IMG/VR virus record: IMGVR_UViG_3300007722_001182
Location: 1 to 21,970 of that record
Reading direction: 5' to 3' (one strand)
DNA from: a virus
Length of the DNA stretch: 21,970 nt
Shown: piece by piece, positions 3,042 to 21,968 of the stretch
Position numbering within the stretch: the first letter of the stretch is position 1
How the letters are laid out: the number at the start of each line of letters is the position of its first letter
Made by a program: the position numbers and the translations under genes
The notes under the pieces: generated by a model
Database searches by the model: none
Seen by the model: the letters and a program-made list of their open reading frames with translations, nothing else
What the model was told of the DNA's origin: nothing

Positions 3042-3061
3042 TATATTTATATATATTTATA
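3042..3061 (+). promoter_or_regulatory. Tandem TATTTATA motif upstream of glycan operon (candidate late promoter)
   Basis: Two copies of TATTTATA at 3044-3051 and 3054-3061 are spaced exactly 10 bp apart, 30-48 nt before ATG 3092. They lie in the 117-nt AT-rich spacer 2975-3091, which holds no gene. The same octamer (last base A or G) precedes four other units in this window. It is the reverse complement of the T4 late box TATAAATA, but lies ahead of + strand genes. Promoter function is inferred from recurrence. Confidence 0.45.
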
Positions 3062-6903: not shown

Positions 6904-6913
6904 TATATTTATG
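6904..6913 (+). promoter_or_regulatory. TATATTTATG motif upstream of polyprotein gene (candidate late promoter)
   Basis: ATATTTATG, matching the shared ATATTTAT(A/G) element, ends 26 nt before ATG 6940. It is the last recognisable motif in the 209-nt spacer that follows the terminator. Function is inferred from its recurrence before other units. Confidence 0.4.
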
Positions 6914-6939: not shown

Positions 6940-9900
6940 ATGAATAATTTTATCAGCGACATTACGCAAGGTGTGTCAAATTTAGTTGAATCTGTGATAA
7001 CAGCCACAGAAAAGGCAACCGATTATATTGTAATTTATTCCGGGCGATTTCAGCCGTTTCATAAATCACATTATGAAACATATAAAAAACTAACAGCCAA
7101 ATTCGGTAAGGATAAAGTTTTCATTGGTACGTCGAATAAAACAGATGCAAATTCGTCTCCATTTTCATTCAATGAAAAGAAGCGCATTATGACAAAAATG
7201 TTCGGTATAAGTGCAAAGTATATCGTCCAGTTGAAAAACCCATATAGACCCGATGAAATCACTAGTAAATTCAATGATAAGACTACAGCCTATATAGCAG
7301 TCGTTGGAGAAAAAGATGCGGCAAGATTGACTGGCAAGTTTTTCAAAGTATATAAAGACGGCATGCAATTGAATCCAATGGTGGATAATGGATATGTTTA
7401 TATTGCTCCTCATATCACTAACGTATTCGCACTCCCAGGTGGAAAAAAAGATGTGACTGGAACAGTCGTTAGAAACGCTATTCGCACTGGAACGGAAGAT
7501 GAACAAATAGCGGTATTGAAAATGCTATATCCAAAAATAGACAAATCCATTTTCGATTTAATCATCAAAGGAATAGCAGAGTGCATCACAGATGATGATA
7601 TTGTACATTTTCTAGAATCAGTTGATATTGGTGAATTGCTTAAAGAATCAACGTCATCGGATTCCGCTGGAGCGACCCAATCCGTTGATGATGGACCTAG
7701 ATATCATTATCCATCACATACAACATATCAACGCGTCACTTCAAGAAGAGCCGCTAAGATAGGGTATACGGTATTAGATTATATCATCAAGGGAGCAGGA
7801 CCTCAAGGTGAAATGGCTCCTGATTATCCAGATGGGCCTGTGGATGCTATATCCTACTTACCAGCAGGAGTCGCGGGATTAAAAACACCAATGAATCAAC
7901 AGGATTTGATTGGGTCGGAAGGCTGGAGTAAATGGTTCGACCATGTTACTAGATCGGCATCTCTTGTTGGGTATGAATTAGTAAAGACGAAGGAGGAAAG
8001 GCTTCGACAGGACAAAGAGCATAAACAATCCGCTATACAATCAAAGGCTGATAATAATAAACGATTCAATACAAACACAATGCCAGAGTCCACATTGGTT
8101 TTAATAAAAGCGGCATTAAACGAATATCAAGCAAAATCAGATATTTTAGAAATTGCATATGATATAAGTGATGAGCATAGAAACATAGTTGAACATCTAA
8201 TCGATTTTACCTTTGAAGTATTAGGAATTACTCAATATCCAAATATTAGGCTAACAACGGAAAGGGAAGATATATCGACCACCGCGTATTATAATATCGA
8301 ATCACATGATATAAAAATATACACAAAAAATAGAGCGTTGGCAGATGTACTACGCTCTATTGTACATGAAATTGTACACCACCAGCAAAATCTAGAAGGT
8401 AGGTTAGTTAGAAACGAAGATTCAAAATGGGCAATTGGAGAAACTGATCCATGGGAAACAGAAGCTCATGCAATGGCTGGGCATATTATAACCAAATTCA
8501 AACATATATCTGAAAAGAATATCTACTTGAATGAAGCAAGGACAAAGCAAGCAGTCGCTGGTGGGAAGGTTCAACGGTTTATAACTGGTCTTAATATTAC
8601 ACTCTTTGGAAAGAAATATAATGTAGTTGAGTTTGAACGACTATCCATCGATAATGGACAAAGGCTTGTTAGATTCAGAATCGATTCCCCAAGAGAAATA
8701 GCGGGTAAGGAAATATATGTATCATTCCAAGAGTTGCGGAGAGGTCGATTTATGGCAACTCCTATACCAAATGCGTTAGAAGAATTTACAAAAAGTGGGA
8801 CAGTTAAAAGTACAGAATCTGGCAACAAAACATTACATCAATTAAATGAAAACACCAACGGCAATTATGATTACTCATGCTTAATGGTGGTTCACAAGCA
8901 TATTCCAGCAACCGCACTACCTGTATTGGATCCTGCTGATATTTACGACGAAGTTGGATATGGAATAGAAGATGATCCACATATTACAGTTTTATATGGA
9001 ATACATCAAGAAATATCATTTGAACAAGTATTAGCGGCAATAGAACCAGTCGGTGAAATTAATGTGAAATTCACAGGTATTAGTATTTTTGAAAATGAAA
9101 AATACGATGTGCTGAAATATGATATAGAAAGCGAAGCGTTGCATACAATGAACGCAAAGCTAAGAAATTCAATACCATTTACGAATTCATATGATGAATA
9201 TCAACCACATTCAACCATAGCATATTTGAAACCAGGAACGGGTAAAAAATACATCAGATTACTCGATGAGCCAATATCAACAATAGTAGATACATTATAT
9301 TTCAGCACACCAGCTGGAAATAAATCGTTTCATCAATTAAATGAAAATCCAGATACAATCCATGCAGGGGGCTCAAATACTGCTGATATTGGCAGCCGAG
9401 ATGCTAGGGCATTTGGTATGTTTAATGGTAAGGTATACATTGGCCAGCATCAATGGGAATATCATGATGATTTAGCTTTGTCATATCTTGGCAGAAAGTT
9501 AATCACTCAAGCACAATATGATAAATTACCAAAAAATAGATATATCTGGACATATCCTGGAAGATTATGGATTAATAAAAAACTAATTTCATTTTGGAAA
9601 TACCCGAAAACAAAAGCGGAATTCTTGATACTTTTGAAAAAAATAGAAAAGGCAGCCAAAATTAAAATAATTGGCTCTGGTTGGAAGGTTGAAGTATATC
9701 CAGGATCTGATGAAGTAAACAACTTGACGAATGGCGCTAAATTAATCAGTACGGATACATATAGGGGAAGTAAAGACGCTGCTGGAATTAATACAGACCA
9801 TGCCAAATCACCAATTGACAAGACAAAGAAAACTGTACCAAATAACATGGGCGCAAATAAATCTATTCCCGGAGCAAGAAAAGGCGAAACACCTGCCCAG

Positions 9901-11757
9901 ACACGATATAGATTGAAATTGAATGAAAATCCAGATACAATATACGATCCAGATAGTCGCTATCAAAAACTAGCGACTGCTGGTAGTCGAGGGTCACACG
10001 CTTTCGGTGTATTCAAAAATAAAATATACGTAAGCAGGCAGTATGAGTATCATGGTGATATAAATGGCAATTACAGGGATAAACCAAAATATGATAATAA
10101 GATCCCAATGTCCCGCGGCGATTTCAAAAATCCAGGTAGAATATGGACTGTTGAAAAAATAATATCCTTTTACATGTATCCAGATACCTTATCTGAATTG
10201 AAGAAAATTGTAAAGGGAATTGAAACAGAACTCAATATAAAAATCGCTGGTGCGAAATGGAGGCTTGAAATTAATAATGAAAAACCACATTCATATGAAA
10301 AATCATCATCAATAATACCAATAGATAATTATAAGAAGAAAAGTAAGGACGCTGATAATAAACACATTGACCATGCAGTTTCTCCAATGAATAAAAAGAA
10401 AAAAGTTGTACCGTCGAACATGGGGTCAAACAAACCAATTCCAGGAGCAAAAAAAGGTGAAACTCCTGCTCAGACACGGTATAGATCGAAACTGAACGAA
10501 AATATATTATCTTCTAAGAATTCTCTAGAACGTAGAATATTATTAACATGTGGAGGAGCTGCTGGACACATGACCCACCCATTTCATGATATGGCGCTTA
10601 CATTTGGTGACTTAAAAGTATTGATAGTTAACGCACTTCAAGGCAAGCTAGAAACTGTATCTGAAAAGTTGGACGGTCAAAATATAATGGTTAGTTGGAA
10701 GAATGGCAAACTTATATTCGCTCGTAATAAATCACACGTTAAGAATTTCGGTACCGGTGCTCTTGATATTAATGGAATAAAATCCAAATTCGCGGGAAGA
10801 GGTACAGTATCAGATGCTTTTTCATTAGCGGCAGATGATCTAAATGCGGCAATACAAAAGCTTTCCGAAAAACAAAGAGAACTTGTATTTGGTGATGGTA
10901 GATTTTTTATGAATTTGGAAATTATATTTGTAAAAAACTTAAATACAATACCATATGATTCCAATATATTAATATTTCACGGAACAGTTGAATACAACGA
11001 AGCCGGCGAACCAATTGGTAATGTAGAGAATTCAGGAATGATGCTCGCTGATATGATTAAAAAAATAAACCAAAACGTCCAACAAACCTTCAACATATCA
11101 GGCCCAATTGTTTCTAAATTACCAAAATCGAAGGATTTTTCAAAATCACAACCAATATATCTAAACAGACTTGCAAAATTACAAAGTAAATTTAGATTGA
11201 AAGATACAGATATGGTAGCCAAATATCATCAATTGTGGTGGGAAGATTTTATTGATACGACAGCATCTAAGATGAAATTTTCAATTACCAACAAGGAAAA
11301 AATGGGGTTAGTGAGCAGATGGGCATTCGGCAACAAATCATTCAGATTGAACAAATCATTTATATCAGATGAAGGAGCCATTGGGTGGGCTGTTAAATTT
11401 GATAAGAATAATCAAGATGAAGTACAAAGAGCAAACATATTACCATTCGAATTATTGTTTCTTGAATTGGGCGCAGAGGTAATGTCAAACTATCATTCTC
11501 CACTTATAATTGATAAGGATAAGGCTACAGTTGAACTTAAAAAGGAATTGGCAGCGGCTGCAATGGAATTGAGAAAAACGAAAGATGTAAATAAATTAAA
11601 ACAATTCAAACGAGCACTTGAAAAGATCAGGTCGATTGGTGGAATGAAAGCAGTAGTTCCGACTGAAGGGCTTGTTTTTTCATTTAGAGGGAAAATTTAC
11701 AAATTAACAGGAAGTTTCGCAAACACCAATACCATATTGGGCTTATTGAAATATTAA
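6940..11757 (+). CDS. Giant multi-enzyme protein, candidate capsid-packaged polyprotein
   Basis: This 1605-residue protein carries, in order: (1) 28-210, nucleotidyltransferase like NMNAT, with GRFQPFHKSH (HxxH, 41-44) and DVTGTVVR (171-178); (2) 236-395, unknown, with DDGPRYHYPSHTTY and SYLPAGVAG; (3) 396-532, zinc metallopeptidase, HEIVHH (476-481) and later WETEAHA; (4) 533-637, unknown; (5) 638-802, 2H phosphoesterase (LigT/2'-5' ligase superfamily), HITV (681) and HSTI (757); (6) and (7), two copies of an unknown domain; (8) 1188-1605, ligase-like nucleotidyltransferase with EKLDG (Lys1243), ARNKSH, NLEIIF, TEGLVF and KIYKLTG. LNE tripeptides at 393, 530, 635, 800, 994 and 1185 fall at module borders and fit the T4 prohead protease rule (L/I)-x-E. 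The likely reading is a precursor cut in the procapsid, but a single large virion enzyme is possible. No Shine-Dalgarno. Confidence 0.8.
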   Translation: MNNFISDITQGVSNLVESVITATEKATDYIVIYSGRFQPFHKSHYETYKKLTAKFGKDKVFIGTSNKTDANSSPFSFNEKKRIMTKMFGISAKYIVQLKNPYRPDEITSKFNDKTTAYIAVVGEKDAARLTGKFFKVYKDGMQLNPMVDNGYVYIAPHITNVFALPGGKKDVTGTVVRNAIRTGTEDEQIAVLKMLYPKIDKSIFDLIIKGIAECITDDDIVHFLESVDIGELLKESTSSDSAGATQSVDDGPRYHYPSHTTYQRVTSRRAAKIGYTVLDYIIKGAGPQGEMAPDYPDGPVDAISYLPAGVAGLKTPMNQQDLIGSEGWSKWFDHVTRSASLVGYELVKTKEERLRQDKEHKQSAIQSKADNNKRFNTNTMPESTLVLIKAALNEYQAKSDILEIAYDISDEHRNIVEHLIDFTFEVLGITQYPNIRLTTEREDISTTAYYNIESHDIKIYTKNRALADVLRSIVHEIVHHQQNLEGRLVRNEDSKWAIGETDPWETEAHAMAGHIITKFKHISEKNIYLNEARTKQAVAGGKVQRFITGLNITLFGKKYNVVEFERLSIDNGQRLVRFRIDSPREIAGKEIYVSFQELRRGRFMATPIPNALEEFTKSGTVKSTESGNKTLHQLNENTNGNYDYSCLMVVHKHIPATALPVLDPADIYDEVGYGIEDDPHITVLYGIHQEISFEQVLAAIEPVGEINVKFTGISIFENEKYDVLKYDIESEALHTMNAKLRNSIPFTNSYDEYQPHSTIAYLKPGTGKKYIRLLDEPISTIVDTLYFSTPAGNKSFHQLNENPDTIHAGGSNTADIGSRDARAFGMFNGKVYIGQHQWEYHDDLALSYLGRKLITQAQYDKLPKNRYIWTYPGRLWINKKLISFWKYPKTKAEFLILLKKIEKAAKIKIIGSGWKVEVYPGSDEVNNLTNGAKLISTDTYRGSKDAAGINTDHAKSPIDKTKKTVPNNMGANKSIPGARKGETPAQTRYRLKLNENPDTIYDPDSRYQKLATAGSRGSHAFGVFKNKIYVSRQYEYHGDINGNYRDKPKYDNKIPMSRGDFKNPGRIWTVEKIISFYMYPDTLSELKKIVKGIETELNIKIAGAKWRLEINNEKPHSYEKSSSIIPIDNYKKKSKDADNKHIDHAVSPMNKKKKVVPSNMGSNKPIPGAKKGETPAQTRYRSKLNENILSSKNSLERRILLTCGGAAGHMTHPFHDMALTFGDLKVLIVNALQGKLETVSEKLDGQNIMVSWKNGKLIFARNKSHVKNFGTGALDINGIKSKFAGRGTVSDAFSLAADDLNAAIQKLSEKQRELVFGDGRFFMNLEIIFVKNLNTIPYDSNILIFHGTVEYNEAGEPIGNVENSGMMLADMIKKINQNVQQTFNISGPIVSKLPKSKDFSKSQPIYLNRLAKLQSKFRLKDTDMVAKYHQLWWEDFIDTTASKMKFSITNKEKMGLVSRWAFGNKSFRLNKSFISDEGAIGWAVKFDKNNQDEVQRANILPFELLFLELGAEVMSNYHSPLIIDKDKATVELKKELAAAAMELRKTKDVNKLKQFKRALEKIRSIGGMKAVVPTEGLVFSFRGKIYKLTGSFANTNTILGLLKY
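9346..9927 (+). repeat. Tandem protein domain repeat, copy A, inside the giant protein
   Basis: Residues 803-996. Shared landmarks with copy B are NPDTI at the start, ARAFGMFNGKVYIG (B: SHAFGVFKNKIYVS), WEYHDD (B: YEYHGD), PGRLWINKKLISFWKYP (B: PGRIWTVEKIISFYMYP), VPNNMGANKSIPGARKGE (B: VPSNMGSNKPIPGAKKGE) and PAQTRYRLKLNEN. The domain is unrecognised; the order of conserved Trp, Tyr and Gly suggests a small alpha/beta fold with a disordered basic tail ending in the LNE site. Confidence 0.85.
9928..10500 (+). repeat. Tandem protein domain repeat, copy B, inside the giant protein
   Basis: Residues 997-1187, directly after copy A and bounded by the same LNE motifs. Copies match clearly in protein but have diverged. 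At the DNA level the identity is mainly local: a 20-nt identical stretch at 9340-9359 and 9922-9941 encodes the junction and the NPDT start of each copy. The duplication includes the linker PAQTRYR-K-LNEN, so module and junction were copied as one unit. Confidence 0.85.
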
Positions 11758-11803: not shown

Positions 11804-12484
11804 ATGACACTAATTAGAGTTAAAGGCGGCACAGTTAATGAATCATTACGTAAACGACAGATGCATAAATCTAGACGTAAGATTATTGATGTTCTGAATA
11901 ACGAATACAGAAAGGATACATTTGGAACGCATGTTGTTACTCGTGATGAACGAGAAGCTAAAGAATTAGAAGCAAAGAACCTTAAAGAAGAAAAATCAGA
12001 AATATTTAGGGTTAGTCACACGTGTCCAAAGTGTAATAGATTTTTCGGCAACAGATTAGATAAGAAGTTTTATTATAAAACTAACCATTGTTTTGATTGC
12101 CAAGTTAAGTTTGAAACATCATTAAAGAGTAACGGAATATTTCTTCAATGGGAAAGAATGAAACTTCTGCAAAATGAATTATCGATATTTGTCGATCATA
12201 AACAAAAATTTGAAGATGCCCTGCGAGAAATCAAACCATATTCAGAACTTATTACCGACGCCGGGTACATTAATAAATTTGAAATAAGTCTAGAACAATT
12301 CCAACAAATCAAATCGGACATCCAAGCGGATCTTGATTTTATAGAGGAAACCGTACCGATCATGGTAGACAAATTAGCGGAAATAATTGAATCATTATTA
12401 GATAATCCTGTTTCTGGGTTGATTGCCGAGTATGATGTTATTTTTAGTAAATTATTTATTGGAATGGAAATGTCTGATGCTTAA
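11804..12484 (+). CDS. Zn-ribbon phage protein of unknown function upstream of terminase
   Basis: The 226-residue protein has a basic N-terminus (ESLRKRQMHKSRRKIIDVL), a CPKC (74-77) and CFDC (96-99) pair 18 residues apart that would bind one zinc, and a helical, acidic C-terminal half with coiled-coil character (LQNELSIFVDHKQKFEDALREI, then FIEETVPIMVDKLAEIIESL). Its layout is like unnamed proteins of marine T4-like phages, with the same order of basic start, zinc ribbon and helices; that likeness is from memory and unverified. It starts the operon leading to the large terminase, where T4 keeps the small terminase gp16. A DNA-binding ribbon plus helical oligomerisation region would suit a packaging or small-terminase-like role, but no homology to gp16 is visible. 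The stop overlaps the next gene by 8 nt. Confidence 0.7.
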   Translation: MTLIRVKGGTVNESLRKRQMHKSRRKIIDVLNNEYRKDTFGTHVVTRDEREAKELEAKNLKEEKSEIFRVSHTCPKCNRFFGNRLDKKFYYKTNHCFDCQVKFETSLKSNGIFLQWERMKLLQNELSIFVDHKQKFEDALREIKPYSELITDAGYINKFEISLEQFQQIKSDIQADLDFIEETVPIMVDKLAEIIESLLDNPVSGLIAEYDVIFSKLFIGMEMSDA

Positions 12485-13070
12485 AAATATACGTGAAATA
12501 TTAATACTGGTTCTGGTTGTCATTATAGCATATCAATTTATATTCCCATCCAAAGAAATAATAGAAAAGCCCGTAACAGAGACAGTAATACAAACAGATA
12601 CTACGTATGTGGAAGTAACTACAACCGAAACTGTATATTTACCTCGGTATATTACTAAAAATGACACGATTAGAATTCCAACCGTTGTCGATACACTTTC
12701 AATAATTCGTGACTACTTCACCGAATATACATACAACGATACATTAAAGGTTGAAACGTTCGGATATGGGTATTTGAAAGATACTATATTTATGAATAGA
12801 ATAAAGTCAAGAACGGTATCGTGGGATTATAAAATTCCAGTTATTACAACTACAATAGAAACAACTATCACTTTACCACCCAGACGGGAATTTCAATTTT
12901 ACGTAGGGGCTACCATCGGCGGAGACAAAACAACTATAAATTACTTTGGACCATCCATTGGATTCAAAACAAAATCAGACAAATTCTTTACAATCGGCGC
13001 CGGTATAGTTGGGACGGATAACATAGGAATGACTTTCTCCGCATATTATAGATTCAGACCCTTTAGATAA
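12477..13070 (+). CDS. N-terminally membrane-anchored, beta-rich envelope protein
   Basis: I place the start at ATG 12477 rather than the TTG at 12423, because it gives a clean N-terminus and an 8-nt overlap with the upstream stop. The 197-residue product has one membrane segment near residues 6-24 (REILILVLVVIIAYQFIF). Then comes a Thr/Val/Tyr-rich stretch of repeated short strands (TVIQTDTTYVEVTTTETVYL) and a C-terminal part (FYVGATIGGD, FGPSIGFKTK, FTIGAGIVG, MTFSAYYRF) that reads like outer-membrane beta-strands. Similar anchored proteins with barrel-like ends occur in Bacteroidota phages. Next to packaging genes, a lysis role such as a spanin that bridges both membranes is possible but unproven. 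The stop shares its last A with the terminase ATG. Confidence 0.65.
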   Translation: MLKNIREILILVLVVIIAYQFIFPSKEIIEKPVTETVIQTDTTYVEVTTTETVYLPRYITKNDTIRIPTVVDTLSIIRDYFTEYTYNDTLKVETFGYGYLKDTIFMNRIKSRTVSWDYKIPVITTTIETTITLPPRREFQFYVGATIGGDKTTINYFGPSIGFKTKSDKFFTIGAGIVGTDNIGMTFSAYYRFRPFR

Positions 13071-14683
13071 TGGCAAAACAAGTAACTCAGGCTGAATTAA
13101 TAAAAGAACGTATCACAGAAGAATATGTGAAGTGTAAGAAAAGTTGTTCGTACTTTCTTAACAAATATTGCTATATTCAACATCCGAAGCGTGGCAAAGT
13201 TAAATTCGATTTATACCCATTTCAAGAAAATTCACTTGATGCGATACAGAATAGCCCAAATGCAATTATTCTAAAATGCCGACAGATGGGAATTTCAACT
13301 CTCATTGCAGGATACGCCCTATGGTTGATGCTATTCCATAATGATAAATCAATTCTTGTCCTTGCTATTAAACAAGAAACGGCAAAGAATATCATTAAAA
13401 AGGTTCGGTACATGAATTCATCTCTTCCGTCGTGGTTGAAGATGGCTACTCCGGAAGATAACAAATTATCATTAGCGTTTAGTAATGGTTCATCGATTAA
13501 AGCAACGACATCAAGCGGGGAAGCGGGTCGTTCGGAAGCACTTTCATTATTAATATTTGATGAAGCAGCGTTTATTGATGATATCGAATCGATATGGGTA
13601 GCAGCTCTACCTACACTAGCACATGGTGGGCAATGCGTGGCGATTTCAACTCCAAACGGCGTCGGTAATTGGTTCCATAAGAAATATATGCAAGCCGAAT
13701 CCGGAGAAGATACAAAATGGCTGTTTATGAAGCTCCACTGGACTCTTCATCCTGAATATAACCAGGAATGGAGAGATGGTATGGATAGGGAACTGGGAGC
13801 CAAGGAAGCGGCCCAGGAGTGTGATTGTCAATTTTCTAGTTCCGGAAATAGTGTAATTGAAATGGACTTGATCCAATTTTATAAAGACACATATGTTAAG
13901 GAGCCGTTGGAAAAACGCGGTCTGGGCGGAAATGAATGGTTATGGGAATATCCTCCACTAGGACAAGGAAATCGAACGTATATTATATCGGCAGATGTTG
14001 CTCGTGGAGATGGAGCGGATTTTTCAACGTATCATGTTATTGATATAGAATCATGTGTTCAGGTCGCGGAATATCGAGGACAAGTTGACACCACTTCATT
14101 TGGTACAATGTTGGTACTTGCCGCGAAATCATGGAATAATGCTCTTCTTGTAGTTGAACGTGAAAATCAAGGATGGGCGGTGATACAGGTTATAATTGAC
14201 CATCAATATCCGAATTTATTTTATATATCAAATGATTTAAAATATGTAGAAACTGAACGGATGATGACTAATAAGTACAACGCGCAGGATAGGGGTATGG
14301 TTCCAGGCTTTAGTACAAACTCAAAAACAAGACCATTAATTATTTCCAAATTAGACCTTTATATGAGAGAAAATTCTATAGAAATTCGTTCAAGTAGAAC
14401 AATTGATGAATTGTTTACATTTGTATGGACGGCTGGTAGGGCCCAGGCAATGCGAAGTTATAATGATGATTTGATTATGGCTCTTTCAATCGCGCTATGG
14501 ATTCGAGATACTGCGCTTAGATTACGACAAGAAGGAATAGATCTAACAAAGAAGATTTTAGATGGTATGTCACTTGGTGGAAATAGCCACAATGCAATTT
14601 ATTCAAATAATACATTGGCTAGCGACCCATACAAAATGCAAACCGGAACAGGCGAAGAAGAAGATCTTCGATGGTTATTATAA
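13070..14683 (+). CDS. Large terminase subunit (packaging ATPase/nuclease, T4 gp17-like)
   Basis: The 537-residue protein is close in length to other T4-type large terminases. The ATPase half shows ILKCRQMGIST (67-77), a deviant Walker A with Lys69 ahead of the loop; LLIFDEAAF (160-168), Walker B with the catalytic Glu; and AISTPNG (191-197), the coupling motif. The nuclease half shows IISADVARGDGADFS (305-319) with Asp309, VVERENQGWA (361-370) with Glu363, and YNDDLIMALSIA (464-475) with Asp466/467, the usual acidic metal-binding triad. It drives DNA into the procapsid through the portal and cuts the concatemer. ATG 13070 overlaps the upstream TAA by one base and no Shine-Dalgarno is seen, so translation is probably coupled. 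The portal gene follows after a 63-nt spacer. Confidence 0.96.
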   Translation: MAKQVTQAELIKERITEEYVKCKKSCSYFLNKYCYIQHPKRGKVKFDLYPFQENSLDAIQNSPNAIILKCRQMGISTLIAGYALWLMLFHNDKSILVLAIKQETAKNIIKKVRYMNSSLPSWLKMATPEDNKLSLAFSNGSSIKATTSSGEAGRSEALSLLIFDEAAFIDDIESIWVAALPTLAHGGQCVAISTPNGVGNWFHKKYMQAESGEDTKWLFMKLHWTLHPEYNQEWRDGMDRELGAKEAAQECDCQFSSSGNSVIEMDLIQFYKDTYVKEPLEKRGLGGNEWLWEYPPLGQGNRTYIISADVARGDGADFSTYHVIDIESCVQVAEYRGQVDTTSFGTMLVLAAKSWNNALLVVERENQGWAVIQVIIDHQYPNLFYISNDLKYVETERMMTNKYNAQDRGMVPGFSTNSKTRPLIISKLDLYMRENSIEIRSSRTIDELFTFVWTAGRAQAMRSYNDDLIMALSIALWIRDTALRLRQEGIDLTKKILDGMSLGGNSHNAIYSNNTLASDPYKMQTGTGEEEDLRWLL

Positions 14684-14746: not shown

Positions 14747-17700
14747 ATGGCAAATACAGACTTCAGAACAAGAATTAAGCGCATTTTCGCATCGGGCACA
14801 ATAGTCCGGGTTCTTGGTAAGAATAAGATAAGGGTTATGGATACAGATGAACGTCAATCGTATCCAAAGAATAAGTATAGAAACCGACATGGGTATGGTA
14901 ATCTCCAACGTGGAGCAGCATCAAATCAGAAAACTCAAAATTTAGCATATTTAACGAATAGGCGAGATTTGTTTAGAGATTACGAATGTATGGCGGGAGA
15001 AACAATAATTCCTCTTCCAGATGGAAATAACAAAACCATAAAGGAATTAGCAGAATTATATCCAACACCTGCAGACAAGTTTTATGTGTATTCATATGAC
15101 CACAAAAATGATAATATTCAACTAGGAATTGCGCATTCAGTCCGAAAAACAAAAACGGCCCAAACGTATAAAATAACATTTGATGATGGATCTCATCTCA
15201 TTGCGACGGACAACCATCCATTTTTAATGAGAAATGGAGAATATAAAAAAGTAAAGGATTTACTACCAGATGAATCGGTAATGCCATTTTATCAAAAACG
15301 CTTTTTCAACCAACGATATAGATTTGTTTACGGATTTTCCGATAAATGGATATCTGAACATCGTTTAGTTGCGACCCAATTTGATAGACAATTGAATGAT
15401 AATGAAATAGTGCATCATTGTGATTTTAATAAGGAGAACAATCTTCCATCTAATTTAGAAATAATGGATGATTCGGAACACCGGGCATATCATATGATGA
15501 TAAATAATAAATACATTTGGTCTCCTGAAAACTATGACAAACAATGTAAAGCAATTTCCGTTGGTCTAAAAGCGGCAAATTTATCTTGGAATGGTAAACG
15601 GAAAGGGAAAAACAATCCGTTTTATGGTAAGACACATTCTAGTAATTCAAATCAAAAGCGATCTCGTTCATTGCTCGAATTTCATAGTGATATTAATAAT
15701 AAATCAAAATGGATAGGAAACAATAACGGACGATATAGAGAAGATATTACATTTGATTCACTTGAAGAACTTTCATATGAATTATATAAAAATAATAGTA
15801 AATTAACAAAATATGAATTAATTGAAGCCGCTGGTTGCAACGGCCGGTTGATGATGGCAAGAATAAGTGATGCCGGATACGATGATTGGTATTCATATAA
15901 AACATATATTGAAAATTCAATAAATCATAAGATAGTATCAATTGAATTACATGAAATTTTAGATGTATATGACATGACAGTTGATAAATATCATAATTTC
16001 GCGACAACCGTTTGTTTTGTACATAACTCAATGGACAACGACGCCATAATAGCATCGGCGCTCGATATATACGCGGATGAGTGCCTTGCGGCTGAAACTA
16101 GAATTCCATTATTAAATGGAAATATAAAAACCATAAAAGAATTGTTTGATGAAAATGTCAGTAATTTTTGGGTGTATGGATTAAATGAAGATGGAAACAT
16201 GGAGCCTGCACAGGCTCAATGTGTTATATATAAGGGAAAATCGCAGGTATATAAAATAATACTGGAAGATGGAACCGAAATTAAAGCAACAGGAACACAT
16301 AAATGGGTTGATGGTGAGGATAGAACGCTTAAGAAAACATCAGAACTTAAAATAGGCGATGGAATTTACACACTGAATACAAAAATCAGCGATCGTAAAT
16401 TGAAAGGATATGCTATGATAAAGCATAATGGAAAATTTGAATTCGTTCATAGAATTGTTTCTTGGGCAACTAAATCATTAGTTGAAAGTAGAAAAGAAAA
16501 ATCACGAAAAGCAGTTATTCACCACGCGTCTTTTAATAAATTAAATAATGATCCAACTCAACTCGAGTGGTTAAACCCGAATGAGCACTGGAAAGTTCAT
16601 GCCAATTTCAATAAAAAAATATGGGCGAATGAAGAATTAAATCACATATATAAGGAAAAAACAAGAGCAGGTCATAAAAAATATTGGACACCTGAAATTA
16701 GGAATAAAAAAGCGAAACAACAGCGAGAATTTATGTATGGATTCTCCGCTAATATGTCACATGATGAACGCCGCGATAAATATGGAAACGCTGGGAGTCT
16801 AAATGGCATGTTTGGAAATGGAAAAAAACTAATAGGAAATAAAAATGGAAGATGGTTAGCTGATATTGATAGATTCGATTCAATCAACATTGATACTATT
16901 ATTGATATATTAGTAAAGTCTGAGTATACGTTGGGCGCGCAGTTGACCATGGCCGAAATATTAGAAAAAGCAGGATATACATTTAATAGAACGGAACATC
17001 AGAAAATATCAAACGCAATATGTCAAATATATAATGTGAACAAAGTGTCACAATTTCCAAGAAAACATTATGGAATTAATAGTAAGAATCTCCTACCAAA
17101 GCTGAAAAATGAAATATTAACATTTGATAAAAATCCAAAGAGAAATTATAAAACATTATGTGATCAAGTTGGGACAACGATTCCTATAATGGATTCTGTT
17201 TTAAAAGAAGCAACATATAGAAACTTTTCAGATTTTGTTGATTCGACAAACCATCGGATAGTATCAATTGAAAAAATGAATGAATCAATTGATGTGTATG
17301 ATATACTTAACGCTGGAGAAAGCCACGTATACGCGATCGAAACAAACGATGGTAGTAAATTATTTACTCACAATTGCACTAAAAAGAATGAATTTGGTGA
17401 TATACTAAATATAACATCGTCCGATTCGGAAATTCAAGAAATACTACATAACTTATTCTATGATATTCTAAACATTGAATTTAATCTTTGGCCTTGGGTT
17501 CGTAGCGTCTGTAAATATGGTGATCTATTTTTAGGAATTCAAATAAAAGAAAAGGAAGGCATTCAGAACATTGTTCCACTATCGGCATATGAAATAATCA
17601 GAGAGGAAGGATTTGATCCAGAACGTCCAGCCGAAGTTAGATTTGAATATGATGGTATTTATGGCAAACGTACATTTGATAATTATGAGGTAGCACATTT

Positions 17701-18859
17701 TAGACTTCTCAGCGATTCAAACTTCGTGCCATATGGCAAAAGTGTGATTGAAAACGCAAGAAGAACTTGGAAACAGGCAACACTGCTTGAAGATGCAATG
17801 TTGATCCATAGAATAATGAGGGCACCTGAGCGTAGAGTATTCAAATTGGATGTTGGTAATATTAATCCCGCAGATGTAGAAAGCTTTATAAAGAAACAAC
17901 AAGCCACTCTTAAAAAGATACCATATATCAATCCGGCAACAGGAGATTATAATCTAAAATATAATATCCAGAATCTAACAGAAGATTTTTTCCTACCAGT
18001 TCGTGGTAGTGACAGTGGTACTTCAATTGAAAATCTTCCAGGACTTGAATACCAAGCAATAGATGATTTGGAATTTGTACAAAAACGACTATTTGCCGCG
18101 TTGAAAATACCAAGGGCATATCTTGGATATGAAGAGGACACCAGTGGCAAAGCAGTATTAGCACAAGAAGATTTCAGATTCGCTGGGACAATTGGAAGAA
18201 TTCAATCTATGATAGCATCCGAACTATATAAGATTGCGGCTATTCATTTATATACAATTGGAAAGACCGATGAATCACTTCTTGATTTTACGTTAACATT
18301 GGCAACGGCATCCACAGTATACGAACAGGAAAAAATCAGAATTTGGCAGGAAAAAATCCGAACTGCACAAGATGCTAAAGATAATAAAATGGTGTCCGAA
18401 GATTGGATTTATGATAAAATCTACGGACTATCAGAAGATGAAATCAAAGAACAACGGGAAAAAGTCGCTGAAGATCGTATGAGGCAATTTAGATATACCC
18501 AAATCGAAGAAGAGGGAAATGATCCAGTCGATTCGGGACAAAACGTTCAAGGTGGGCAAGTTGTCGATCCGTTTGCCGACCAATCAGGATTCAAAGGAGA
18601 AGATACATCGGGCGCTGATGATTCAGATAATCCATCTTTAAAGAAAGGTGGAAGACCCAGAGAAAACCAAACGAAATACGGCACAGATAAGCATTCACTT
18701 GGTAGAGATCCAACCGGAAATAAAGAAAACAGCCCATCCACATCTGCAAATGAAATGCTTCGAATGATACAGAATATGAAATCTAAACGTGGGATGTTAG
18801 TTGAAAAGGAAGCATCTCGGCCCGCATCTATGATGGATGAGGAAAACATAATCGAATAA
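14747..18859 (+). CDS. Portal protein (T4 gp20-like) interrupted by two inteins
   Basis: The 1370-codon gene encodes a 592-residue portal once two inteins are removed. The exteins join as FRDYE-SMDNDAIIASALDIYADE-CTKKNEFGD, matching the conserved early region of gp20-type portals (YExMDxDPIIASALDIYADE). Further portal hallmarks are HFRLLSDSNFVPYGKSVIENARRTW, MRAPERRVFKLDVGN, LPGLEYQAIDDLEFVQKRLFAALKIP and GKAVLAQEDFRFAGTI. The portal forms the dodecameric ring at the head vertex for DNA entry, terminase docking and neck assembly. The C-terminus is charged and probably disordered (GGRPRENQTKYGTDKHSLGR). Unspliced product could not form a normal portal, so splicing is presumably essential. It follows the terminase, as gp17 and gp20 lie in the same late cluster of T4. 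Start ATG 14747 has no Shine-Dalgarno. Confidence 0.95.
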   Translation: MANTDFRTRIKRIFASGTIVRVLGKNKIRVMDTDERQSYPKNKYRNRHGYGNLQRGAASNQKTQNLAYLTNRRDLFRDYECMAGETIIPLPDGNNKTIKELAELYPTPADKFYVYSYDHKNDNIQLGIAHSVRKTKTAQTYKITFDDGSHLIATDNHPFLMRNGEYKKVKDLLPDESVMPFYQKRFFNQRYRFVYGFSDKWISEHRLVATQFDRQLNDNEIVHHCDFNKENNLPSNLEIMDDSEHRAYHMMINNKYIWSPENYDKQCKAISVGLKAANLSWNGKRKGKNNPFYGKTHSSNSNQKRSRSLLEFHSDINNKSKWIGNNNGRYREDITFDSLEELSYELYKNNSKLTKYELIEAAGCNGRLMMARISDAGYDDWYSYKTYIENSINHKIVSIELHEILDVYDMTVDKYHNFATTVCFVHNSMDNDAIIASALDIYADECLAAETRIPLLNGNIKTIKELFDENVSNFWVYGLNEDGNMEPAQAQCVIYKGKSQVYKIILEDGTEIKATGTHKWVDGEDRTLKKTSELKIGDGIYTLNTKISDRKLKGYAMIKHNGKFEFVHRIVSWATKSLVESRKEKSRKAVIHHASFNKLNNDPTQLEWLNPNEHWKVHANFNKKIWANEELNHIYKEKTRAGHKKYWTPEIRNKKAKQQREFMYGFSANMSHDERRDKYGNAGSLNGMFGNGKKLIGNKNGRWLADIDRFDSINIDTIIDILVKSEYTLGAQLTMAEILEKAGYTFNRTEHQKISNAICQIYNVNKVSQFPRKHYGINSKNLLPKLKNEILTFDKNPKRNYKTLCDQVGTTIPIMDSVLKEATYRNFSDFVDSTNHRIVSIEKMNESIDVYDILNAGESHVYAIETNDGSKLFTHNCTKKNEFGDILNITSSDSEIQEILHNLFYDILNIEFNLWPWVRSVCKYGDLFLGIQIKEKEGIQNIVPLSAYEIIREEGFDPERPAEVRFEYDGIYGKRTFDNYEVAHFRLLSDSNFVPYGKSVIENARRTWKQATLLEDAMLIHRIMRAPERRVFKLDVGNINPADVESFIKKQQATLKKIPYINPATGDYNLKYNIQNLTEDFFLPVRGSDSGTSIENLPGLEYQAIDDLEFVQKRLFAALKIPRAYLGYEEDTSGKAVLAQEDFRFAGTIGRIQSMIASELYKIAAIHLYTIGKTDESLLDFTLTLATASTVYEQEKIRIWQEKIRTAQDAKDNKMVSEDWIYDKIYGLSEDEIKEQREKVAEDRMRQFRYTQIEEEGNDPVDSGQNVQGGQVVDPFADQSGFKGEDTSGADDSDNPSLKKGGRPRENQTKYGTDKHSLGRDPTGNKENSPSTSANEMLRMIQNMKSKRGMLVEKEASRPASMMDEENIIE
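14987..16027 (+). mobile_element. Intein 1 in portal gene, with HNH/NUMOD-like homing endonuclease
   Basis: Residues 81-427 of the precursor (347 aa). It begins with Cys (CMAGETIIPL, block A), has ATDNHPFL (153-160, block B with Thr and His), and ends DVYDMTVDKYHNFA...CFVHN with the terminal His-Asn, followed by Ser+1. The insert has HHCDFNKENNLPSNLE...EHRAYH (223-249), an HNH nuclease signature, and GKNNPFYGKTHS (287-298), a NUMOD3-like DNA-binding motif. All residues expected for splicing are visible, so it is probably active. The nuclease would cut portal alleles lacking the intein, letting the element spread. Confidence 0.93.
16082..17374 (+). mobile_element. Intein 2 in portal gene, with HNH/NUMOD-like homing endonuclease
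   Basis: Residues 446-876 of the precursor (431 aa). It starts CLAAETRIPL, has IKATGTHKW (block B) and ends IDVYDILNAGESHVYAIETN...LFTHN, followed by Cys+1. The insert shows HHASFNKLNNDPTQLEW...EHWKVH (592-618), an HNH-like signature in which the second His position reads Ala-Ser where intein 1 has Cys-Asp, then GSLNGMFGNGKKLIGNKNGRW (NUMOD3-like). Blocks A and C-terminal blocks resemble those of intein 1 (ETxIPL, KTIKEL, DVYD), which suggests common ancestry. Extra helical sequence about 705-850 may be DNA-binding. Confidence 0.92.
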
Positions 18860-18913: not shown

Positions 18914-19783
18914 ATGAAAAAATTACGGCATTCGAAATTTAAAAATACAGGCTTTTTGTTTGAGATTTTGGTAAGGCAGATCACATCTGATATCATGGCT
19001 GGAAAACAAAAATCAGTATCGGAGCGATTATTAGCCAAGTATTTTAACAAAAATACAGAAATCGGCAAAGAGAATGCCTTATATCAAATTCTTGTCAAGG
19101 AACGCACCACAGATGTCCGCAGGGCTGATAGTGTATTAGATGCGGTAATCGATGCAAGAAAAAAGATAAAAGAAGCAAAGCTCCGGGTTGAAAAGTTTGA
19201 ACTAATAAAGGAAATCAAAGAACATTTTAATGTAGATGATTTATTTAGTTCAAAGTGTCCAACATATAAAACATTGGCATCTGTATATAAGGTATTTGAA
19301 AATGCCACATCCGATGAATTATATAATCCATCCAACGTATCAGAATCAAAGACAACCATCATTGAATCTATATTGAACATACCGAACAGCCCATTAAGCG
19401 CTGAAGATTCAGTATTGGAATATTTCAAAAAACAAGATGTTCGAACTAGAACTCTTTCATATAAAATATTACTTGAAAACTTCAATAAAAAATATGCGGG
19501 ATTAACAAAAGAACAAAAGGAATTATTAAAAGAATATATTATAAACGTAGCAAATACTAATTCTCTACGAGAAACTACTAATAAATTTGCAGATATCGCA
19601 ACCACAAAGCTAAACGCATTTCTTTACGATATAGATGATTCAGTTACTAGAATAAAATTAAAAGAAACAATTAAGCAGCTGGATAAAGTGAAATCCGGTA
19701 GACTTGTCAAAGAATCGCAATTAAGCGCTTTGATGCTCACATTTGAACTTATATCAGAGATAGAAAATGTCACAAAGCTATAA
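18914..19783 (+). CDS. Helical protein of unknown function next to portal, possible head-assembly protein
   Basis: The 289-residue protein opens MKKLRHSKFKNTGFLFEILVRQIT, a start I associate with unnamed proteins conserved in marine T4-like phages beside the portal; that recollection is unverified. The rest is charged and strongly helical (DARKKIKEAKLRVEKFELIKEIKEHF, LKETIKQLDKVKSGRLVKESQLSALMLTF), with no membrane segment, zinc motif or enzyme motif. In T4 the genes just after portal encode prohead core proteins (gp67, gp68) and the protease gp21. Position and helicity therefore favour a role in prohead assembly, but no sequence similarity to gp67 or gp68 is visible. It overlaps the next gene by 17 nt, so the two are probably coupled. 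Confidence 0.7.
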   Translation: MKKLRHSKFKNTGFLFEILVRQITSDIMAGKQKSVSERLLAKYFNKNTEIGKENALYQILVKERTTDVRRADSVLDAVIDARKKIKEAKLRVEKFELIKEIKEHFNVDDLFSSKCPTYKTLASVYKVFENATSDELYNPSNVSESKTTIIESILNIPNSPLSAEDSVLEYFKKQDVRTRTLSYKILLENFNKKYAGLTKEQKELLKEYIINVANTNSLRETTNKFADIATTKLNAFLYDIDDSVTRIKLKETIKQLDKVKSGRLVKESQLSALMLTFELISEIENVTKL

Positions 19784-21968
19784 AAATGAAGCACTTCGCT
19801 CAGTTGAAGTCACATATGATAATGGTACGAAAATCAAAACATCAATGGCGGCTGGATTATCTGATGCTGAAATAAAAGATTATTTCAAAGTCGGCAAGCA
19901 ATTCAATATAGGGTCAGGTAGCAAAGACAAACTAGTTAAAGTAAAATCAGTTAAAATATTATCAGAAGATAGTATCAATGAAAAAATAACAGCCGATGGC
20001 AGGGAACTTGGGCTGTTTATCGACAATGATTCACAATTATATAATTCACGATTCATGCCGATCATAAAGAATTTATCTAGAAAAATGAAAAGCGGCAAGT
20101 TTGACATTAAACTAGCGGCAAAGGGATTCAAATATCTAGTGGATGATGGCGCAAAGAAATACGCGAAAGAATTCGGCAATGAAAAAGAGTGGATCACGAT
20201 GTTTAGCAAAGAAGATAGATTGACGTTGGCTATCCAATACGCTGAAGAATTTAAAGACATGTATGATAATCAAGAATATGATTTTATGAAGCATGAATCG
20301 GTCCAATCCGTTAGAAATTTAATCAATGAAAAAGAAAACGGCATGATTGGTGTTTTTGACGCAATTGATACAAAGGTGGACAATCCTACAACTCAGAATG
20401 TTGCTAAATTCTTAGAAAGAGTTGGGTGTAAAAATAATTACGCTAAACGTTTGGCAGATGGGTACATGAAGTACAAAGATGGGGTAATGTCAAAGGAAAG
20501 AGCCGCTTCAACGTTGATGGAAACTATTAATGAAGCATCTGAAACGTATCGTTTATTTTTAATGGGAACCGGTTGGTGGGTCATTGGACAGGGTCCAGCC
20601 GCATTGAATAAAAAGGTACTCAAATCTGGTAAAGAACTTGCCCTGTTTCTACGGGATAAGGGAATTGGTGATAAAATCACAAATCTAAATACGTTAGATA
20701 AGAAGTTTCATAATTTGGCATTGGGTAAATCAATTGATGATATTGTTAGATATTTGAAAAAAACAATTCCTGCATATAAATTGGCAGAAGGCATGACTTT
20801 AGATCAAATTAAAAAGGCAGTTGATTCTGGAAAAAAAGTGCACTGGGCGAACAAAGGGTATACCATCATAAAGGATACAAAGGGGCAATATTTAATTACA
20901 CACGATAGAGGAAACACAATCGGGTTAACTTGGAGGGATGGTAAAACATTGAACGGGGAGCCTAAAGAATTCTTCTTAGCAGAATCAATCACAGAAGAAA
21001 GAAAAGGGACTGGCTATAAAAAACTATTCGTATCTATGATGAAGAAAGCAGGTATAGCATCACCAGGTGATTTTAAATCAGATGAAGAAAAGAAGAATTT
21101 CTTTGATAAGGTAGACGCTGCATGGGACGCTGGTGATAATGAAGGTGACGTTGATGAAACGACAACCAACGCTAATGTAGCCGGATATAATACCCCAGGT
21201 GCATTTAGTAAGGACAACAAATCAGCAAAAAAAAAAGAAAGTAAATTAACGGCAATAGCACATGGGACGTTCGCTAAATCAATTAATGAAAACATATACG
21301 CATTAAGTACAGTAGAAGATTGGGCAGACGAAATAAAGAAAGGACTTAAGTTACCTTGGATTGGTGTTACAATTAGTACACTTGGTGGAGCAAAAAGAGC
21401 ATCCATTATATTTAAAGTAAGTCTTGATAAAAAAGAAGATTGGGCAAATAAGATTTGGCAAAACTCTAGATACGGAATGTTCACTGCATCATATGACGGT
21501 ACACTTGAAATGTATTCACATGATAGACAACATACAGCAAGATTCAGAAAAACAAAAATCAAAACAGCAAAGGATGTTATTACCAAAATTAATAAATGGG
21601 CATCTGAAAGTGAAACTATGAATGAAACGAAAAAAAGCTGTTCATGTGGTTGCGGCGGGTGCGATGAATCAAAGAAATTGAACGAAGCACTGGCAGTCGG
21701 TGCGGAGATATTCAAAGCTAAAGATAGTATGTGGTATGTGGAATTTCCTATGGACGACCCACAGTATGAGATGGGAAGCAACCCAATCCCACACGGACCA
21801 TTCGATTCTCAATCCGCCGCTTCAAGTTATGCATCGAAAAAGAAACCAACTTATTACAGAATTGATAAAAGTGGAAGAGAATCAGCACCTAAAAATCCAG
21901 TGAATCCTAAAGATGGTAAATTGAAATCAGCATCGACATCTGCTATATATCGCAGGGGTCTTAAATAA
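19767..21968 (+). CDS. Multi-module protein with (I/L)-N-E junctions, candidate prohead core or cargo protein
   Basis: This 733-residue protein looks like a chain of modules split by (I/L)-N-E tripeptides at residues 70, 186, 254, 506 and 638, plus ITE at 408. Modules: 1-72 (VTYDNGTKIKTSMAAGLSD...DYFKVGKQFNIGSG); 73-188, helical (MPIIKNLSRKMKSGKFDIKL, YLVDDGAKKYAKEFG); 189-256, helical; 257-410, with a compact beta part (GKKVHWANKGYTIIKD, GLTWRDGKTLNGEP); 411-508, with acidic and Ala/Lys linkers; 509-640 (IIFKVSLDKKEDWANKI, SRYGMFTASYDGTLEMYS); and a 93-residue tail. CSCGCGGC lies at 625-632. Several modules look like ones seen in other marine T4-like phages, a recollection I cannot verify. 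Junctions match T4 prohead protease specificity, and the gene lies where core proteins are expected. No function for any module is recognised. The gene is complete, ending 2 nt before the window edge. Confidence 0.75.
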   Translation: MSQSYKNEALRSVEVTYDNGTKIKTSMAAGLSDAEIKDYFKVGKQFNIGSGSKDKLVKVKSVKILSEDSINEKITADGRELGLFIDNDSQLYNSRFMPIIKNLSRKMKSGKFDIKLAAKGFKYLVDDGAKKYAKEFGNEKEWITMFSKEDRLTLAIQYAEEFKDMYDNQEYDFMKHESVQSVRNLINEKENGMIGVFDAIDTKVDNPTTQNVAKFLERVGCKNNYAKRLADGYMKYKDGVMSKERAASTLMETINEASETYRLFLMGTGWWVIGQGPAALNKKVLKSGKELALFLRDKGIGDKITNLNTLDKKFHNLALGKSIDDIVRYLKKTIPAYKLAEGMTLDQIKKAVDSGKKVHWANKGYTIIKDTKGQYLITHDRGNTIGLTWRDGKTLNGEPKEFFLAESITEERKGTGYKKLFVSMMKKAGIASPGDFKSDEEKKNFFDKVDAAWDAGDNEGDVDETTTNANVAGYNTPGAFSKDNKSAKKKESKLTAIAHGTFAKSINENIYALSTVEDWADEIKKGLKLPWIGVTISTLGGAKRASIIFKVSLDKKEDWANKIWQNSRYGMFTASYDGTLEMYSHDRQHTARFRKTKIKTAKDVITKINKWASESETMNETKKSCSCGCGGCDESKKLNEALAVGAEIFKAKDSMWYVEFPMDDPQYEMGSNPIPHGPFDSQSAASSYASKKKPTYYRIDKSGRESAPKNPVNPKDGKLKSASTSAIYRRGLK

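Follow-up and report, generated by a model that had tools for sequence, protein, structure and literature searches.

The window analysed here is a 21,970-base IMG/VR record that carries a polyprotein gene, open from its ATG, adjoining the genes for the large terminase and the portal (Table 1). In Mel-JY01 and LR756508, the corresponding gene likewise lies close upstream of the terminase. The encoded chain appears to fold into seven or eight modules, and the active-site motifs of an enzyme are intact in at least four of them: an NMNAT-like nucleotidyltransferase, a HExxH metallopeptidase, a 2H phosphoesterase and an RNA-ligase-like nucleotidyltransferase.

Table 1. Features of the window, with predicted cut positions marked by a slash
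Feature	Position	Strand	Remarks
Candidate late-promoter element TATTTATG	6906..6913	+	34 bases before polyprotein start codon
Polyprotein gene, 1605 aa	6940..11757	+	
N-terminal leader MNNFISDITQGVSNLVE, predicted gp21-type site LVE/S (residues 15-17)	6940..6990	+	sister chain RLVE/T; relatives
M0, NMNAT/cytidylyltransferase-like, ~residues 18-236	6991..7647	+	PF01467, phrog_395, PDB NMNAT/PPAT
M0b, residues 237-395, ends at LNE 393-395	7648..8124	+	conserved in L176 and other chains
LNE site 1 (ALNE/Y)	8116..8124	+	
M1, HExxH metallopeptidase-like, residues 396-532	8125..8535	+	phrog_16532
LNE site 2 (YLNE/A)	8527..8535	+	
M2, residues 533-637	8536..8850	+	at least 3 different neighbour contexts
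LNE site 3 (HQLNE/N)	8842..8850	+	
M3, 2H phosphoesterase / 2'-5' RNA ligase superfamily, residues 638-802	8851..9345	+	PF13563
LNE site 4 (HQLNE/N)	9337..9345	+	
M4, residues 803-996, first tandem-duplication copy	9346..9927	+	
LNE site 5 (KLNE/N)	9919..9927	+	
M5, residues 997-1187, second copy of M4	9928..10500	+	
LNE site 6 (KLNE/N), in pLDDT <50 stretch before ligase fold	10492..10500	+	
M6, RNA-ligase-like nucleotidyltransferase, residues 1188-1605	10501..11754	+	AlphaFold model, motifs
Large terminase gp17	13070..14683	+	
T4-like portal gp20 with two inteins	14747..18859	+	
Second polyprotein-like gene, 733 aa, six [LIM]NE	19767..21968	+	0.39 expected, P 3.5e-6

M0 matches PF01467 (7e-5), phrog_395 (5e-11) and NMNAT/PPAT structures in the PDB (3e-5), with the motifs GRFQPFHKSH (residues 35-44) and TGTVVR (173-178). 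M1 keeps its HExxH as HEIVHH at residues 476-481 and matches phrog_16532 (4e-4); a standalone M1 in cyanophage B23 starts MNYKQFLRE/ST. M3 matches PF13563 (1.5e-8) and retains both HxT motifs (680-685 and 756-761). The tandem modules M4 and M5 are 49% identical, and both copies (9346-10500) carry the nearly invariant tail GETPAQTRYRxKLNEN. A search for their relatives gave no match among phage records and, among viral contigs, only L176 (a single copy) besides the near-identical contig described below. A model spanning M0-M0b-M1 was poor (pLDDT 61), and fold matches from it were not used.

M6 carries the motifs KLDG (1243-1246), NLEII, EGLVF and YKLTG. A profile search against PDB sequences returned nothing useful, so the assignment of M6 stands on these motifs and on its fold. 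Against solved structures, the AlphaFold model (pLDDT 83) matches T4 RNA ligase 1 first, and its remaining top hits are likewise RNA ligases, at a Foldseek E of only ~1e-3 and a VIA Z of ~7. Residues 1176-1194, which include the LNE at 1185, have a pLDDT below 50, and the fold starts after them.

Several further features of the window were recorded. The second polyprotein-like gene lies in the head-gene cluster and, from its sequence, appears to carry the same site signature as the first; pieces of its product match separate leader-bearing ORFs, such as one in L266 (MNQFKHYLDKVRNRVNE/S), and ORFs in L267 and L268. The two portal inteins (~340 and ~430 aa), recognised by Intein_splicing in two stretches and by HNH and NUMOD3 motifs, are separated by ~20 extein residues. 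Directly before the terminase gene, 12423-13070 encodes a small protein that has a hydrophobic stretch at its N-terminus and weakly resembles outer-membrane beta-barrels (Pfam 5e-4, below cut-off). The motif TATTTATA occurs on the + strand at 3044, 3054, 6906 (as TATTTATG), 11774, 14691 and 18875. Its five exact copies are all intergenic, in a window of which intergenic DNA makes up 3.6%, and most stand 30-56 bases before a start codon; a similar spacing of ~40 is seen before structural genes in Mel-JY01. TATTTATA is a candidate late-promoter element differing from the T4 late promoter TATAAATA, which shows no over-representation in the window.

Glutamate sites at the module borders

The sequence-only reading of this DNA had placed LNE tripeptides at residues 393, 530, 635, 800, 994 and 1185, and all six are present. 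It had also held that fewer than one would be expected, in agreement with the 0.43 predicted from composition (Poisson P ~6e-6). None lies inside a domain core, again as claimed, with core limits drawn by us from homology. Its further proposal, that LNE marks every major border, holds in part: all six stand in linkers, but the border near residue 236 reads LLKE/S. This probable extra site at the end of M0 (residues 234-236) has counterparts in a sister chain (LLKE/S) and in LR756508 (LLQE/A), and a further cut after Glu236 is predicted. The LVE at residues 15-17, suggested earlier as a possible leader site, is supported by the RLVE of the sister chain and by the [LIV]xE that most N-terminal relatives carry in their leaders.

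The LNE count is weaker than it appears, since the motif was picked post hoc; the broader class [LIM]NE occurs six times against 1.05 expected (P 8e-4). Nor are the six independent, because residues 803-996 and 997-1187 form a tandem duplication; with one copy removed, five [LIM]NE remain against 0.93 (P 0.003). For (L/I)xE, the gp21 class as a whole, the total shows no excess, with 19 occurrences against 15 expected. Thirteen of the 19 fall outside the domain cores, in 22% of the length (P 1e-5, an indicative value given that the cores were set by us from homology), and the six inside would have to be shielded by folding if the protease cuts. For these reasons, the argument has to be built on what the relatives show.

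One such relative is the sister chain in L176, of 1127 aa and 64% identical over its first part. Its alignment runs along residues 1-532 as far as IYLNE; the residues that follow, LNENPD, match those at 800 and 994. It lacks M2, M3 and one of the two M4/M5 copies, and the joint falls exactly at LNE, while LVE 15-17, LLKE 234-236 and the LNE at 393 and 530 are all kept.

The sequence-only reading had proposed asking of homologues whether the site is kept while neighbouring residues vary, and this is what the relatives display. In 66 of 78 non-redundant chains, the border preceding the ligase module has [LIM]xE at one fixed distance, 8 residues ahead of the H in HMxHPF. The forms include LLTE, LIME, LLVE, LLKE, LLFE and INE before GGAYGHM, with P3 and P1 fixed and P2 free, and the standalone ligase of LR756500 starts MKFLKSYEEFLNENLILE/GGSYGHL. 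Of the remaining 12 chains, ten, including that of the window, show Cys or Met where the others have Glu (LLLC, LLLM, LLTC). In most of these ten, [LIM]xE stands ~20-40 residues farther upstream; in two its place is taken by VNE or FRE, and L248 has no site of these types within 45 residues upstream. As read from the alignments, this pattern is the trace that would be expected of a protease site with gp21 specificity.

Other borders behave similarly. Nearly all internal nucleotidyltransferase modules, like the N-terminal ones, have [LIVMF]xE 14-18 residues before GRFQPF. M2 follows LNE/A here and VNE/A, LSE/A, MKE/A, ITE/A or LQE/V in other contexts. In Mel-JY01 (Microcystis elabens), the nearest isolate with such a chain, the 639-aa protein carries LLSE and IIAE/GG sites. 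Across 37 non-redundant polyproteins, with module borders taken as the ends of local alignments, (L/I)xE was found near borders 107 times against 63 at random positions for starts, and 124 against 60 for ends. The corresponding z-values (6 and 9) overstate certainty, because the alignments depend on one another, and more weight belongs to the controls: (L/I)xD, (L/I)xK, (L/I)xQ and [DEKR]xE showed no border excess in the same set. [AGST]xE was weakly raised, and the sites depart from the S/A-x-E of S80 proteases in having Leu, Ile or Val at P3.

Protease, leaders and a family member in virions

The sequence-only reading had proposed looking for a gp21-like protease downstream of the window, and one was found in a near-identical 41-kb contig (IMGVR_UViG_3300027976_000079) that extends beyond the window end and encodes a prohead protease, a scaffold-like protein and the gp23 capsid protein. 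The protease (L013:2070-2684, outside the window) matches Pfam Peptidase_S77 at 8e-30, far better than S80, and the T4 gp21 structure 5jbl at 2.6e-17. It keeps the catalytic His (in GELDHP) and Ser (in GISSRG); at each of the two aligned positions, the 5jbl chain reads Ala. T4 gp21 cleaves after Glu in L/I-x-E (PMC9026906), and the capsid protein has a conserved site of this kind, QLIDE/A in this phage, QLISE/A in Mel-JY01 and QIVSE/A in immuto, shortly upstream of a conserved E-W-A-G-V-A-L-P-L-V-R region. Downstream of the capsid gene, L013:5977-8688 contains homing-endonuclease-like ORFs and a 277-aa ORF that by eye resembles a terminase ATPase fragment.

The 2H module provides a view of the same site outside the chain. 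A scan with this module returned 80 viral loci, mostly single ORFs of ~180 aa with a short leader, such as MIKLVDLLKE/NSDSKYKYGC, MKIKSYIQFINE/SINGYKYGC and MKTIKDFITE/KKSNYDFSC. The ends of these leaders align to NKTLHQLNE/NTNGNYDYSC in the chain. Among 44 non-redundant standalone cases, (L/I)xE is present in 42, against 9.2 expected from domain bodies, and [LIVMF]xE in all 44. Glu lies 5-10 residues from the anchor, in most cases 8, as in the window chain. A T4-type leader, short, N-terminal and placed before the site, is thus found in this group, including the standalone relative MKFLKSYEEFLNE. In T4, the leaders of internal proteins are targeting sequences that are removed by gp21. The leaders here could be targeting signals only, with the motif retained for targeting.

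The 2H fold itself does not require a leader, because leaderless phage copies exist in Molly (MSDSKNNRRFGC), in Count and as the second copy in LR756508 (MASEDNRKFEYGC). Molly does not serve as a protease-free control, because it has a weak S77 match. The control from bacterial genomes was small, at five loci. One of them (L275, MIKTFTQFLTGLFE) has a clear leader, and an S77 protease is encoded on the same contig. Neither leader nor S77 accompanies the two portal-like fusions or the single ORF that starts like a signal peptide, and the fifth locus is ambiguous. Across the Mel-JY01 proteome, (L/I)xE at residues 8-13 occurs at 0.017 per position against ~0.012; this test was dropped as support because the excess is weak, and the leader signal is accordingly specific to some proteins. 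A separate arrangement is seen in a 635-kb phage (L259:2953-4269), in which a leader-bearing 2H module is followed by ESINE and an apparent DnaQ-like exonuclease, forming a two-cassette chain.

The nucleotidyltransferase family of M0 has a relative among virion proteins. In the sections of PMC3037559 covered here, the putative cytidylyltransferase T4-GC190 is reported from purified S-SM1 virions. S-SM1 GC190 belongs to phrog_395 (6e-129), the family of M0, and relatives match phrog_395 at 4e-16 and 2e-14. The S-SM1 protein starts MKKFSAFLNE/AERSF, and the versions of S-SM2 and S-SRM01 start MKSFFQFLSE/AQSQ and MKNFHQFITE/ATSA. As far as those sections go, GC190 is a family member with an LNE/A leader in virions, a protein identification and not a cutting result. 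In S-SM1, GC71 (a KWDG ligase-like protein) and GC190 are encoded by adjacent genes (L270:27296-29420), and fused forms of the two probably exist, since phrog_455 spans both.

Proposed processing of the chain and its place among known systems

The protease gene, the conservation of the sites and the breakpoints of the sister chain lend good support to the earlier proposal that the chain is a prohead-protease substrate. We consider it to be a modular capsid-cargo polyprotein of packaged enzymes that enters the prohead as one chain and is divided there by gp21, with a probability of roughly 0.8. One chain would be synthesised late in infection and would enter the prohead core by means of its N-terminal leader, which resembles those of T4 internal proteins. 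A gp21-type protease would then act on the exposed linkers between modules, cleaving after the Glu of (L/I/V)xE. The released small enzymes would stay in the head and reach the next host with the DNA. It is also at the module borders that whole cassettes have been added, dropped or copied. Late expression, cleavage, packaging, injection and a role against host defence or in NAD/RNA repair are the steps that we infer. Cutting of the sites by the S77 protease is very probable, and retention of the pieces in the mature head followed by their injection is reasonably likely. The domain identities raise the tentative possibility, which may well prove wrong, that the cargo counters defence through NAD and RNA repair.

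The sites may instead be relics of fused leader-bearing genes, with LxE acting as a linker or recombination point in a chain that works uncut as a polyvalent protein and is injected whole. The breakpoints of cassette exchange do coincide with LNE, some polyvalent proteins are packaged unprocessed according to the sections of PMC5512222 covered here, and the N4 virion RNA polymerase is reported to be packaged and injected whole. Yet P1 and P3 stay constant although P2 and the remainder of the former leader have drifted, most ligase borders that have lost Glu have (L/I)xE upstream, and an active S77 protease in the prohead would encounter exposed sites regardless, which together make an uncut chain unlikely. 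The chain might also be cut from within by M1, which keeps its HExxH, as the same sections propose for DdrB of phage P1. Most relatives that share the sites have no detectable M1, however, the standalone 2H proteins bear the same leader without any peptidase, and the motif fits both gp21 and the capsid protein's own site; self-processing is thus highly improbable. Finally, the LNE repeats would be functionless products of composition in a Leu/Asn/Glu-rich, partly duplicated protein if the post hoc choice of motif and the duplicate pair of modules accounted for the count. Conservation of the sites over tens of divergent relatives, together with control motifs that are not enriched, leaves this explanation scarcely credible.

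Leader-targeted, gp21-cut head proteins in T4 and polyvalent proteins are both known already. Like T4 IPI-III and Alt, the proteins described here combine a short leader ending in (L/I)xE, a head-gene context, a gp21-type protease and diverse cargo. In contrast, T4 cargo is encoded by separate genes and cut near an end (at both ends in Alt), whereas here one chain holds several enzymes, with almost all of its borders marked by a site. Polyvalent proteins (Iyer et al. 2017, PMC5512222) also unite unrelated domains, including a metallopeptidase and 2H, in one polypeptide and are thought to be packaged and injected, as the sections covered here describe them. The window chain joins at least two biochemically unrelated domains; by Pfam it has no ArdC-N hub domain, and it does have a HExxH module. 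In the same sections of PMC5512222, the metallopeptidase within the chain is given as the processing enzyme of polyvalent proteins, no mention is made of prohead-protease sites separating modules, and 2H domains had never been seen together with RNA ligases, whereas the window chain has both a 2H and an RNA-ligase-like module. In phiKZ and SPN3US, which use S80 proteases, many head and ejection proteins are likewise cut C-terminal to Glu, some of them multiply. Those sites are S/A-x-E or A-x-E, unlike the Leu, Ile or Val at P3 here, and several lie in propeptides rather than between enzymes. Cyanophage T4-GC190 (phrog_395) and phrog_455 share M0's nucleotidyltransferase family, the LNE/A leader and a ligase-like neighbour (GC71), but in S-SM1 these are two neighbouring genes and not a multi-cassette chain. 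Our literature search, which covered mainly open-access papers, found no account of an enzyme chain with a prohead-protease site at nearly every border, or of cassette exchange at such sites.

If our reading is right, the sites amount to a sequence rule for reading from DNA what uncultured phages carry in their virions, with NAD and RNA repair enzymes indicated as delivered cargo. It would also account for the abundance of very large multi-domain 'cytidyltransferase' proteins in aquatic phage contigs; in two scans, at least 549 of 599 and at least 568 of 599 stretches were confirmed as relatives. We lean slightly towards a cargo code that is widespread in aquatic T4-like phages, in which a chain loaded into the capsid can accept any (L/I)xE-bounded cassette between its nucleotidyltransferase module and its terminal RNA-ligase module. 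Should such a code exist, every phage would have an individual, exchangeable stock of ready-made enzymes that are separated in the prohead and delivered as infection begins, perhaps against host defence.
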